DNA of 6,616 nucleotides from Streptomyces speibonae (lineage in GTDB: Bacteria; Actinomycetota; Actinomycetes; Streptomycetales; Streptomycetaceae), in contig KL568553.1 in assembly GCA_000715605.1 (NCBI GenBank), positions 73,356 through 79,971 on the forward strand, read 5' to 3'. The position numbers and the translations under genes were made by a program. The notes beneath the pieces are model-generated. The model saw only the letters and a program-made list of their open reading frames with translations, did not search any database and was not told where the DNA came from. Positions 2,975-5,851 of the stretch are shown piece by piece. Within the stretch, counting starts at the first letter, position 1. Each line of letters starts with the position of its first letter.

Positions 2975-3220
2975 TCAGCAGGCCTGAGCCGTCACCGGGT
3001 GGCCGATCAGTTCGGCGGGCAGCTCCAGCCGCGCGCCGCAGAAGCACAGCAACGTGTAGCCGGTCCCCCCGGGTGCTCCGAGGTCGACCGTCAGGAGGGC
3101 ATGCAGTTCCCGGACCACTTCAAGTAGGTGGGAACCCCTCGCGACGAGGATGCTGACCTCGTTCGGATCCCATACGACGATGTCCGGCAGATCGTCCGCA
3201 ACGGCGACGTGGATGCACAT
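2975..3220 (-). CDS. Small protein of unknown function
   Basis: This 81-residue protein begins MCIHVAVADDLPDIVVWDPNE. I do not recognise a family. It is acidic to neutral and has no signal peptide or membrane segment. It shows a hydrophobic N-terminal strand pattern, a probable helix (HLLEVVRELHALL), then LLCFCGARLELP with a Cys-x-Cys pair, and it ends in Cys. A longer reading from an ATG at 3250 adds ten residues (MPLCIPGETV). I reject that start because the inner ATG at 3220 has a near-ideal ribosome-binding site (GGGGAG, six bases upstream) and the outer one has none. It follows the XRE regulator gene in the same direction after 145 bases, with promoter-like sequence in the gap, and could be its target or partner. 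Confidence 0.7.
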   Translation of the reverse strand: MCIHVAVADDLPDIVVWDPNEVSILVARGSHLLEVVRELHALLTVDLGAPGGTGYTLLCFCGARLELPAELIGHPVTAQAC

Positions 3221-3226
3221 GACTGT

Positions 3227-3232
3227 CTCCCC
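3227..3232 (-). promoter_or_regulatory. Ribosome-binding site fixing the small-protein start
   Basis: On the minus strand GGGGAG stands six bases before the ATG at 3220. It matches the 16S rRNA anti-Shine-Dalgarno sequence well and decides for the 81-residue form over the 91-residue one. Confidence 0.75.
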
Positions 3233-3283
3233 AGGGATGCACAACGGCATGAAGTTCCGCTTCGGGAGGCCAGCGGCTTCCCG

Positions 3284-3365: not shown

Positions 3366-3788
3366 TCAGGTGATCCTGCTGACCTGAAGCATCGCTTCCG
3401 CGTCCTTGATCAGGGCGCGCTGCCGGGCCTCCGGCAGCTGGCGGTAGAGCTTCAGCAGCCGCGCCTCGCGCTCGTCCTTGCTGGGCCCCGGCACGGGACG
3501 CCCGACGGCCTCGAAGAACTCCTTGGGTGTCGTACGCACACCCCACCGCCGGAACACCTCGACCATGGCCCGCAGCTTCTCCGGCGCGATCCGGGAGGTG
3601 CCGCGGGTGCGGTTCATCCAGGCGTTGAGCGTCTGGTAGGAGATGCCCGCCTCTTTGGCCAGGTCCTTCTGGGTCCCGCTCTGGGGCAGCGCGAGGAGGC
3701 GCTCGAGGAGTGCCGCCAGATCCTCGCCCGGGCGCTCCGGATCGTCACCGGCGTCCGGTGCGGGAGGGGGCGTCTGTCGGTTCGTCAC
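3366..3788 (-). CDS. XRE-type helix-turn-helix transcriptional regulator
   Basis: This is a 140-residue cytosolic DNA-binding protein. Residues 1-20 are a Pro/Asp-rich, probably flexible tail. The helix-turn-helix is at about 38-60 (TQKDLAKEAGISYQTLNAWMNR), with QKDLAKEAG as the positioning helix and SYQTLNAWMN as the recognition helix. The C-terminal segment (about 105-136, DEREARLLKLYRQLPEARQRALIKDAEAML) is strongly helical and resembles the dimerisation or tail helices of phage-repressor-like proteins. It carries no peptidase or metal-binding motif. The start is GTG at 3788. It has no Shine-Dalgarno sequence, but a -10-like hexamer lies seven bases upstream, which implies a leaderless mRNA. 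A dyad operator covers its -35 element, so autorepression is likely (inference). It is divergent from the sigma-factor operon, which it probably also controls. Confidence 0.87.
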   Translation of the reverse strand: MTNRQTPPPAPDAGDDPERPGEDLAALLERLLALPQSGTQKDLAKEAGISYQTLNAWMNRTRGTSRIAPEKLRAMVEVFRRWGVRTTPKEFFEAVGRPVPGPSKDEREARLLKLYRQLPEARQRALIKDAEAMLQVSRIT

Positions 3789-3795
3789 GCGTCAG

Positions 3796-3825
3796 AGGAT
3801 GTGCCATGCCCATCTACAAGCGCAA
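3796..3825 (-). promoter_or_regulatory. Candidate leaderless promoter of the XRE gene
   Basis: On the minus strand TTGCGC (3825-3820) and CATCCT (3801-3796) are separated by 18 bases, and the -10 lies seven bases before the GTG at 3788. The -35 hexamer lies inside operator site A, so a bound protein would block RNA polymerase. Confidence 0.5.
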
Positions 3826-3831
3826 GTAGAT
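3812..3831. promoter_or_regulatory. Operator site A (dyad ATCTAC-N8-GTAGAT)
   Basis: ATCTAC (3812-3817) and GTAGAT (3826-3831) form a perfect 6-bp dyad with an 8-bp spacer. The spacer (AAGCGCAA) is itself centred on GCGC. The site covers the -35 of the XRE promoter. The half-sites and spacing are the same as in sites B and C. Confidence 0.75.
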
Positions 3832-3901
3832 TGCAGATCGAGGCGGGGATCGGGTGGTGTGCGCCGGAGCGTTCGTACGGTCGCCGCACAACCCGCACCC
3901 C

Positions 3902-3930
3902 TTGACGCGATCTACATCTACATGCAGACT
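3902..3930 (+). promoter_or_regulatory. Candidate promoter toward the sigma operon (PB)
   Basis: TTGACG (3902-3907) is an excellent -35 and CAGACT (3925-3930) is close to the TAGAC/TT -10 type, with a 17-base spacer. Transcription would start near 3937, giving a leader of about 186 bases before the sigma-factor GTG. Operator site B covers the spacer and -10. Confidence 0.55.
3910..3929. promoter_or_regulatory. Operator site B (degenerate right half)
   Basis: ATCTAC (3910-3915), eight bases, then GCAGAC (3924-3929), which matches GTAGAT at four of six positions. The left 15 bases, ATCTACATCTACATG (3910-3924), are identical to those of site C at 3991-4005. The spacer itself repeats the ATCTAC half-site. 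It lies inside promoter PB. Confidence 0.65.
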
Positions 3931-3988
3931 GTGTATGTCCTCGGGAGGCGGCCCCCGGCGGTGGGTCGAGCGGAGCTGTCGCGTCCAG

Positions 3989-4012
3989 GTATCTACATCT
4001 ACATGTAGATAC
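3989..4012. promoter_or_regulatory. Operator site C (strongest dyad)
   Basis: GTATCTAC (3989-3996) and GTAGATAC (4005-4012) form a perfect 8-bp dyad around the 8-bp spacer ATCTACAT. A second, shorter perfect palindrome, ATCTACATGTAGAT, is nested at 3997-4010. The outer arms have the site A spacing. In RNA from PB this could also fold into an 8-bp hairpin in the leader. It is the best-matching copy and so may be the highest-affinity site. Confidence 0.75.
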
Positions 4013-4020
4013 AAGATGTT
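3992..4020 (+). promoter_or_regulatory. Possible second promoter toward the sigma operon (PC)
   Basis: TCTACA (3992-3997) matches four of six -35 bases, and GATGTT (4015-4020) is an imperfect -10, 17 bases downstream. If active, it would start near 4027 with a 96-base leader and be covered by operator C. This is weaker than PB. Confidence 0.25.
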
Positions 4021-4122: not shown

Positions 4123-4713
4123 GTGTCCTTACCCACCCCCACGAGAACCGCCCCGGACGCCCCGGAGCCGGAGTGGCTCGCCCGTGCCCGCAACGGGGAC
4201 CGGGAGGCGTTCGGCCTCCTCTACCGCGAGCACTACCGGCTGGTGTACGGCTACCTGCTGAGCCGCACCCGCGACCGGCACCTGGCCGAGGACCTGACCC
4301 AGGAGGTCTTCACGCGTGCCCTGCGGAACATCGGCGGCTTCGCCTGGCGGGGCACGGACCCGGCCGCCTGGCTGACCACCATCGCCAGGAACCTGCACCT
4401 GGACGAACTGGGCCGCAGCCGCACCCGGCGGGAGACGCTGGTCCCCGAGTTCGGGGACCCGGAGCAGCCCGGTCCCGGCACCGAGTCCCTGGTGCTGCGG
4501 GAACTGGACGTCATCGAGGCCGGCGAGACGGTGCAACGCGCCCTGTGCGCGCTGGCCCCCTCCCAGCGGCACTGCGTCGAACTGCGCTTCATCGGAGGGC
4601 TGTCGATCGAGCAGACCGCCACCGCCATGGGCCGCACCGTCGGTGCCGTCAAAGCCCTGACGCACCGTGCCATGTGCAAGCTGCGCTGGGCGGCGGGGGC
4701 GATGGCCGCGTGA
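4123..4713 (+). CDS. ECF-family RNA polymerase sigma factor with TTA codon
   Basis: This 196-residue sigma-70 factor of the extracytoplasmic-function type directs core RNA polymerase to a specific promoter set. Region 2 spans about residues 28-100: AFGLLYREHYRLVYGYLLSR, then region 2.2 as AEDLTQEVFTRAL (55-67), and region 2.4 ending in WLTTIARNLHLDELGRSR. A variable linker follows (101-130). Region 4 is at about 135-190, with the -35-binding helix-turn-helix LSIEQTATAMGRTVGAVKALTHRAMCKLR. There is no extra C-terminal domain. Codon 3 is TTA, the only TTA codon I find in any gene of the window. In Streptomyces such codons need the bldA tRNA and are linked to development and secondary metabolism. 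The stop overlaps the next gene's GTG, so translation is coupled. No anti-sigma gene is adjacent. Its target promoters are unknown. Confidence 0.94.
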   Translation: MSLPTPTRTAPDAPEPEWLARARNGDREAFGLLYREHYRLVYGYLLSRTRDRHLAEDLTQEVFTRALRNIGGFAWRGTDPAAWLTTIARNLHLDELGRSRTRRETLVPEFGDPEQPGPGTESLVLRELDVIEAGETVQRALCALAPSQRHCVELRFIGGLSIEQTATAMGRTVGAVKALTHRAMCKLRWAAGAMAA

Positions 4714-5366
4714 ACGGACCCGTCGTACGCGCGCCGTCCTTCGTCCGCGTGACCGTCGTGGCACCCCACCGCGACCAGCCCGCCGCCACGACGCTCCCCG
4801 CGCCGGCCGAACCGGACGCCCCCGTGCCGTCGCCCGGCGCACCCCCGCCGACCGAACTCGAACAAGAGGCACTCGCCTGGGACGCCGCCCGCGAGCACGC
4901 CAGGATCGTGGCCCGGGCGGTCGAGAGGGAGGTGGGAACCCACCCGGACGTGCGCAAGGTGTGGGCCGACGGCGACGCGGTGCGTGTCCTCCTCGAACTC
5001 GCGCCCCCGTTCGCGCGATGGCCCGGCTGGTGCGAGTACTTCGGCATCACCGTGGCCGACGAGCCGGCCGGAGACAGCACACCGGCCGGTGAAGGGCGGC
5101 GTGCCGGAGTCCGGGTGAGCGTCCTCGTCCGGCAGGCGGCCACAGCGGCGCGGCCCTTCCGGCTCGGCGACACCCTCTACGACCTCGCGGTCCCGTACCG
5201 CGACGCGCACGGCGTCATCTGGTACTTCCAGGGACAGCGGGCCGACGACGGAATGCCCCTGATGTCGGTGGACGGCCGCGCGGAGCGCTGTTCCCTCGCC
5301 AACGTGGCCGAGTACGCGGGCCCGCTGACCCCCCTGCCCCCGTCCGCGTCGGAGGAGTCCGGATGA
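4710..5366 (+). CDS. Conserved-looking protein of unknown function, sigma-operon second gene
   Basis: This is a 218-residue protein starting at a GTG that overlaps the sigma-factor stop (GTGA). I do not recognise a defined domain. Residues 24-48 are a Pro/Ala-rich linker. Residues 49-76 form a charged helix (ELEQEALAWDAAREHARIVARAVEREV), followed by strands in HPDVRKVWADGDAVRVLLEL (about 78-97). The C-terminal half holds RAGVRVSVLV and then a well-ordered segment, LYDLAVPYRDAHGVIWYFQGQRADDGMPLMSVDGRAERCSLANV split over about residues 157-199. No signal peptide, membrane helix or zinc-binding anti-sigma motif (HxxxCxxC) is present, so it is not a classical anti-sigma factor. From memory and unverified, it may belong to the family NCBI labels BN159_2729, common in streptomycetes. 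Coupling to the sigma gene suggests a shared role. Confidence 0.82.
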   Translation: MNGPVVRAPSFVRVTVVAPHRDQPAATTLPAPAEPDAPVPSPGAPPPTELEQEALAWDAAREHARIVARAVEREVGTHPDVRKVWADGDAVRVLLELAPPFARWPGWCEYFGITVADEPAGDSTPAGEGRRAGVRVSVLVRQAATAARPFRLGDTLYDLAVPYRDAHGVIWYFQGQRADDGMPLMSVDGRAERCSLANVAEYAGPLTPLPPSASEESG

Positions 5367-5851
5367 ATCCGCCGACCGTGCTGCGCAGGCTCCTGCCGCA
5401 CCGGGCCGCCCGGGCCCGGGCGGCCGAGGACAGGCTGCGCCTGGAACACGAACTCGCCGTGAGCAGACAGCGGCTGGCGCGCTGGCAGCAGCACGCCGAC
5501 TCCTACGAACGCCAGGCGGTCCGGACGCACCAGGAGCGGGCGCACCTCCTGGCCTGGCTCGCGGCGCTGCATCCGGCCAGTGCCGTCCTCAGCCCGCTCG
5601 ACACCGAAGGGACGCAGCGCCTGTGCCTGGTGGCCGGCGGATGGCATCTGTCGTGGCGCGTGCCGCCCGGCGACCTCGCCCTCTTCACGCACGTGCCCTC
5701 CCACCCGGAGCACTCCGCCGCGCACGACGCGACCGACCTCGACGACGGCCCCGACCAGGGGTCGCTCATTCGCCGGCACACATGGCTGCTGGCCTGTGAA
5801 GCCACCGCACATCCCGGACGCGCCGCAGCGGCTCCTCCGGCGGGCCCGTGA
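5363..5851 (+). CDS. Coiled-coil protein of unknown function, sigma-operon third gene
   Basis: This 162-residue protein's ATG overlaps the preceding stop (ATGA) and has GGAGGAG five bases upstream, so it should be well translated. Residues 12-66 are Arg/Glu/Gln-rich and helical (RAAEDRLRLEHELAVSRQRLARWQQHADSYERQ region), probably a coiled coil. A compact segment follows at 67-111 (WLAALHPASAVL, then LCLVAGGWHLSWRV and DLALFTHVP), which looks like a small beta-rich fold. The C-terminus is low complexity (AAAAPPAGP). No membrane segment or catalytic motif is visible. I have an impression of similar segments in streptomycete accessory-island proteins but cannot name a family. It is the last gene of the operon, with a terminator 44 bases later. 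Confidence 0.8.
   Translation: MNPPTVLRRLLPHRAARARAAEDRLRLEHELAVSRQRLARWQQHADSYERQAVRTHQERAHLLAWLAALHPASAVLSPLDTEGTQRLCLVAGGWHLSWRVPPGDLALFTHVPSHPEHSAAHDATDLDDGPDQGSLIRRHTWLLACEATAHPGRAAAAPPAGP

Follow-up and report, generated by a model that had tools for sequence, protein, structure and literature searches.

The window, i.e. the whole stretch of 6,616 nt of Streptomyces speibonae DNA that was analysed (contig KL568553.1, positions 73,356 to 79,971), quite probably contains the control region of a temperate actinophage, retained without an integrase and a Cro-like gene, in which a XRE-type regulator would repress both its own gene and a divergent sigma factor operon by means of three operators. 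Given that integrase and Cro-like gene are absent, the region, as judged from sequence comparison, would act like an actinophage immunity region, while being filed neither as one nor as a prophage. The initial annotation had anticipated this reading in part: the XRE switch is well supported by comparison, a promoter at the third operator and phased looping are not supported, and both the phage descent and additional half-sites had been missed.

Operators and genes of the window

The presence of three genuine repeated elements, named A, B and C, was confirmed. A search for ATCTAC-N8-GTAGAT with up to three mismatches gave three matches in the window, starting at 3812 (no mismatch), 3910 (two mismatches) and 3991 (no mismatch), and shuffled windows contained 0.30 matches on average, none of 200 shuffles attaining three. 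Of the three shared dyads originally described, A and C are therefore exact and B is an imperfect copy, its two mismatches leaving GCAGAC, not GTAGAT, as right half. The 15-mer ATCTACATCTACATG, common to B and C, and the distances between site starts (98 bp from A to B, 81 bp from B to C) are as first reported. In the whole 8.76-Mb assembly, the dyad is found without mismatches at A and C only.

The predicted operators, to which no strand is assigned, are longer than the dyads. A (3812..3838) is made up of the exact dyad at 3812-3831 and an outer half-site at 3832-3838; B (3910..3936) and C (3991..4017) include the dyads at 3910-3929 and 3991-4010, respectively, each with a weak outer half-site. 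The fit of the latter is good at A only, B and C being poor, with two and one mismatches to the longer pattern. When this longer, degenerate site was searched with up to two mismatches, four places were found in the same genome, three of which are A (0), B (2) and C (1); the fourth, outside the locus, has two mismatches. No Rfam families, tRNAs, generic promoters or terminators were found near A, B or C.

A XRE-type repressor gene of 140 aa with a GTG start, predicted to be leaderless (3366..3788, reverse strand; HTH_3 27.2 bits, cut-off 23), reads away from A. Its predicted promoter (3796..3825, reverse strand) consists of TTGCGC (3825-3820), 18 nt, CATCCT (3801-3796) and 7 nt leading to the GTG at 3788. 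The corresponding pattern TTGCRC-N18-[GC]AT[CG]CT, with TTGCRC inside A, precedes the XRE gene in all 27 loci read, i.e. the window and the loci from protein-based scans (24 from Streptomyces and 3 viral), minus L031, dropped for a match over 28 residues only; the overlap of A with the -35 element of the XRE gene, noticed initially, is hence a conserved arrangement. The aligned GTG lies 6 or 7 nt past the -10-like hexamer, and five loci have an extra GTG 2 nt earlier. Since no ribosome-binding site is seen before the XRE start, the promoter is taken to be leaderless, with its -35 inside A.

In a structure model of the XRE protein (mean pLDDT 80.3), the HTH helices span residues 40-47 and 51-58, the latter being the second HTH helix. 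A fold search ranked XRE-like folds at the top, none at E <= 0.001. Among 25 aligned XREs, T53, W57, R62 and G63 are invariant and N55 nearly so, and the helix of the window, SYQTLNAWMNRTRGTSR, is identical in the XREs of the phage-type loci L029 and L030. The sharing of a TCTAC core along with these helix residues fits XRE as the likely binder of the sites. Downstream of the XRE gene lies a small ORF of 91 aa (2975..3250, reverse strand), with tblastn matches in L029, L030 and L048-L053; in phage-type loci its relatives sit between the XRE and integrase genes.

On the other side, the predicted sigma-operon promoter (3902..3930, forward strand) is formed by TTGACG (3902-3907), N17 and CAGACT (3925-3930). 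The first gene of the operon (4123..4713, forward strand) encodes an ECF-type sigma factor of 196 aa, matching Sigma70_r2 (PF04542, 65.9 bits, cut-off 24) and Sigma70_r4_2 (PF08281, 45.3 bits, cut-off 25.7); its score with the BldN-family ECF sigma model (TIGR02952), 118.3 bits, is below the cut-off of 206.45. It is followed by G3 (4710..5366, forward strand; 218 aa), a member of the BN159_2729 family with a phiSA1p31-type domain (NF038081, 202.2 bits, cut-off 80; NF038082, 75 bits, cut-off 30), and by the third operon gene, G4 (5363..5851, forward strand; 162 aa), for which no Pfam or NCBIfam family is over cut-off. A generic sigma-70 scan called neither the XRE nor the sigma-operon promoter.

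Distribution and form of the operators

The initial annotation had suggested searching other Streptomyces for the motif along with the regulator. XRE matches were found in 39 of 392 Streptomyces genomes, 19 of which have a close homologue (E <= 1e-38). The strict A pattern was detected only where such a homologue exists (13/19 genomes versus 0/373 others; Fisher p 4e-20), all 13 patterns adjoining the XRE gene, and the reversed pattern, used as control, was not found in any of the 392 genomes. The six genomes without the strict pattern (G306, G256, G109, G218, G398, G287) show, at the XRE locus, the N8 dyad with at most two mismatches. The self-contained XRE switch is well supported by this comparison; occurrence of the motif before unrelated genes without the regulator, which had been named as speaking against it, was not observed for the strict A pattern in the 392 genomes. 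A 13-mer of the B/C type was found in 39/392 genomes: 16/19 of those having a close XRE homologue, and 23/373 of the remainder (Fisher p 3e-15); the reversed 13-mer also matches in several genomes, and for this reason only the A pattern was treated as specific. The module is patchy in the genus, and 13 of the 19 genomes with a close homologue have no integrase in the fetched flank.

Site A occupies one fixed place before the XRE start in 27/27 loci read, the N8 dyad being exact in 24 and having one mismatch in L009, L027 and L028. Conservation was further evaluated in 35 loci, including the window, classified as integrase-less within the fetched flanks. An A-form site (up to two mismatches) is present in all 35, that of the window being the exact match at 3812. 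Among the other 34 loci, B is kept in 32 (absent in L026 and L043) and C in 33 (absent in L046); near-duplicates reduce these sets to 27 or 28 distinct contexts per site class.

The columns conserved in these alignments read TCTGCG-ATCTACTTGCGCNTGTAGAT at A, TCTACA-GTCTTCATGTAGATG at B, where the right end is weak and GTAGAT is found in 12/32 sites, and TCTTCA-ATATTCATGTAGATGTAGAT at C, while flanking columns carry little information. An outer half-site TCTNC, in the direction of XRE, is present at 32/34 A, 28/32 B and 23/33 C sites of the other loci, and a second right half-site at 31/32 B and 31/33 C sites. From the conserved columns, each site is therefore described as a cluster of 3-4 half-sites with a TCTNC core. 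The N8 dyad, originally taken as the full operator, was rejected as such, since the outer half-site and, at B and C, the second right half-site are conserved too; column information from the other loci defines a longer element, of about 27 bp, with more than two half-sites. The exact dyad is found at 29/34 A, 0/32 B and 0/33 C sites of the other integrase-less loci, and its exact form at C is peculiar to the genome of the window.

At 41 of the 41 host and phage B sites listed, TTGACN is followed, after 17 or 18 nt, by a hexamer of the form nAnnnT/TAnnnT, so that the described position of B, over spacer and -10 of a TTGAC promoter, is a conserved arrangement; B sites were, however, picked by the presence of GTCAA within 12 nt, which makes the adjoining TTGAC part of their definition, and the -10 match is loose and overlaps the operator. 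The weaker promoter proposed at C is not sustained by the other integrase-less loci, where the flanks of C have no conserved TTGAC-like hexamer. Looping between sites had been suggested from their spacing. Distances in host loci vary from 85 to 219 bp between A and B (Rayleigh p 0.91) and from 125 to 449 bp between A and C (p 0.76), without helical phase, which argues against the phased form of looping. In phage-type loci, the A-B distance is 122-124 bp in 8/9 cases.

Related phages and prophages

In the phage-type loci, the small ORF and a tyrosine integrase gene come after the XRE gene, which faces a second HTH gene matching PHROG 14639, 'cro-like repressor' (1.5e-23). Site C falls inside the Cro-like gene in L029, L030 and L049. 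Operator C encodes a STSTR stretch of the Cro-like protein in L029 (4271-4771) and L095 (2552-3073), and the same frame would read TGA in some host copies, such as L007. The A pattern was found in 19 stretches of viral contigs. The eight with a GC content of at least 0.65 all contain XRE, small ORF and integrase; seven of them also show the Cro-like gene, which the eighth contig has in another piece (L196). The other 11 have a GC content of 0.23-0.46, lack any XRE match and were regarded as chance occurrences.

In 11 of the 12 phage-type loci with enough sequence, the Cro-like gene is followed by a sigma gene, L112 and L113 having been left out as too short. The exception is contig G431, where a different ORF (L029 3800-4270) takes the usual place of sigma, between the Cro-like gene and a G3-like ORF. 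A Streptomyces prophage group, in which an ECF-type sigma gene directly follows the Cro-like gene, is thus pointed out. These sigma-carrying IMG/VR prophage contigs, of the G432 type, share with the window sites A and B and a XRE 70.7% (L029) or 67.6% (L030) identical; in both loci the A core is exact and its spacer similar to that of the window. Sigma and G3 of L030 are 49% and 46% identical to those of the window. Unlike the window, such contigs contain an integrase, a Cro-like gene holding C and, in G432, structural genes: further on, this contig shows a RecT-like match and terminase, portal and tape measure genes. The very similar operators, and the recognition helix identical in two of the phage XREs, suggest that the XRE of the window would probably also repress the early promoter of related phages, and immunity to phages of the G432 type is predicted.

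A more distant XRE family, about 40% identical, has the same layout, but the repeat found in the corresponding position ahead of the repressor gene is TTCTAC-N14/15-GTAGAA. It is clear in 8/10 loci, truncated by the ORF call in L061 and degenerate in L057. A TTCTAC...GTAGAA repeat also precedes the repressor gene of phages VWB and OnionKnight, and a variant of it that of mu1/6. The immunity regions of these three phages resemble the window in having a XRE repressor, 30-37.5% identical to that described here (tblastn E 8e-8 to 4e-5), preceded by an inverted repeat with TCTAC-like halves. They differ in that the repressor is divergent from a cro-like gene, with the integrase on the repressor side, both genes being absent in the window, and in the spacing of half-sites, N14/15 versus N8. 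No sigma gene was found in any of the 13 pieces of the distant XRE family and the three named phages, within the pieces read for the latter. The annotation of mu1/6 lists integrase, hypothetical protein, repressor, cro-like repressor and excisionase, and that of OnionKnight tyrosine integrase, hypothetical protein, HTH protein, immunity repressor and excise. The mu1/6 repressor (L257 1681-2001) is annotated from a CTG; by analogy with its relatives, an ATG about 50 nt past the start of the inverted repeat would give a leaderless, longer protein, and the annotated start may be wrong.

Control regions of the lambda CI/Cro type have divergent promoters and several copies of one operator. The window is similar in its divergent promoters, repeated operator and predicted autoregulation, but the Cro-like gene is absent, the sites are 81-98 bp apart rather than adjacent, and the output is a sigma factor.

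Probable retention in the chromosome and alternative explanations

The module of the window is located between proS and an APH gene. No integrase match was found, within the fetched flanks, in the window, L005-L028 and L037-L047, and no match to the Cro-like gene at E 0.01 in the window or the other integrase-less loci, some of which contain faint possible Cro-like remnants (best E 0.006, L024). A tree of 53 XREs places the integrase-less sequences in a single clade of 29 rows (support 100/98); a clade of integrase-linked sequences appears in 0 of 200 bootstrap trees. The window XRE falls among the phage repressors; support for the branches that put the clade next to L029 and L030 is below the threshold taken as strong, and the nesting is not forced by strong branches alone.

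The integrase-less clade splits into two sister clades, of 22 and 7 rows, at different chromosomal places. In the former, 19 rows have proS in the fetched flank, and for L015, L023 and L043 the distance to proS would be about 4 kb, if contig numbers are taken as contig order. The latter is away from proS, by about 2 Mb in G148 and G306; G126, L016, L017 and L027 are either on a different contig or far along, and the genome of L022 gave no proS orthologue. Seven picked genomes without the module have none beside proS, and APH is within 1.5 kb of proS in six of them. A plasmid origin was discarded, as plasmids gave no XRE match. As a separate observation, positions 1-18 of the window, inside contig C35, correspond to GATGTGTATAAGAGACAG, which we take to be the Nextera transposon end, and translate as DVYKRQ in the frame of the first GNAT-like ORF; at this point, adapter contamination or a chimeric join in the assembly is probable.

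Uncorrected pN/pS values were obtained by comparing 12 relatives at the proS locus to the window. They range over 0.17-0.28 for XRE and 0.12-0.22 for proS, 0.34-0.75 for sigma, 0.43-0.85 for G3 and 0.33-0.78 for the small ORF. The low values of XRE, and the higher ones of the other three, indicate repressor and sites as the best-kept parts; the weaker constraint on sigma and G3 suggests that the switch may matter more than its output.

In the proposed switch, XRE would bind A, B and C. Occupation of A, over the -35 of the leaderless promoter, would result in autoregulation, and that of B, over spacer and -10 of the TTGAC promoter, would block the sigma operon, while C, lying downstream, might add occupancy or serve as a roadblock. 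A drop in XRE, or its inactivation, would permit synthesis of sigma, G3 and G4. If so, a phage immunity repressor and its operator array have outlasted the rest of the phage and been retained by the host for regulation, their output being a sigma factor, and the operator sequence would predict the actinophages which such strains should resist. More tentatively, a lysis-lysogeny switch may have been tamed as an on/off switch for an ECF sigma factor, the repressor both silencing the operon and immunising the cell against a family of sigma-carrying actinophages, and an infecting phage causing derepression by titrating the repressor with operators of its own.

The same data might be explained, although this appears doubtful, by XRE being kept mainly as an immunity gene, a chromosomal orphan repressor expected to shut off the early promoter of any incoming phage that shares its operators, while the sigma operon would be a passenger. 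The constraint on XRE, far stronger than that on sigma, G3 and small ORF, points in this direction, as do the recognition helix and exact A core shared with L029 and L030; B, C and the TTGAC promoter, needless for pure immunity, nevertheless stay beside sigma in nearly all host loci. An improbable reading is that of a decaying prophage relic without present function. It would account for the missing integrase, Cro-like and structural genes, the faint Cro-like remnants, the fast change of sigma and G3 and the patchy presence of the module (close homologues in 19/392 genomes, 13 without integrase in the fetched flank). The pN/pS of XRE is near that of proS, however, and the operators are intact in nearly all loci of the two sister clades, at different places and among flanks that are little informative. 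XRE binding being a prediction, the operators could also be the target of another host regulator, with XRE as a mere neighbour. This is very improbable, as the strict A pattern goes together with the XRE gene in the 392 genomes, and the distant XRE family has a related repeat in the equivalent position ahead of its repressor gene.

No literature on this locus was found among titles and abstract openings, nor in the excerpts of PMC10117723, PMC9429907 and PMC11302927, and the open-licence literature gave no account of a phage sigma factor under a repressor of such kind. Sigma factors in phages are already known: sporulation sigma factors of Firmicutes phages are described in excerpts of PMC10117723 and PMC9429907, and, among Streptomyces phages, the annotation of Gilgamesh includes an RNA polymerase sigma factor (34% identity, 79% query coverage). 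Finally, a metagenomic viral contig (L178 4015-4398) contains, among the listed matches of a B/C-type 15-mer to viral contigs, four copies of CRTGTAGATGTAGAT exactly 123 bp apart, an array which is probably an unrelated tandem repeat.
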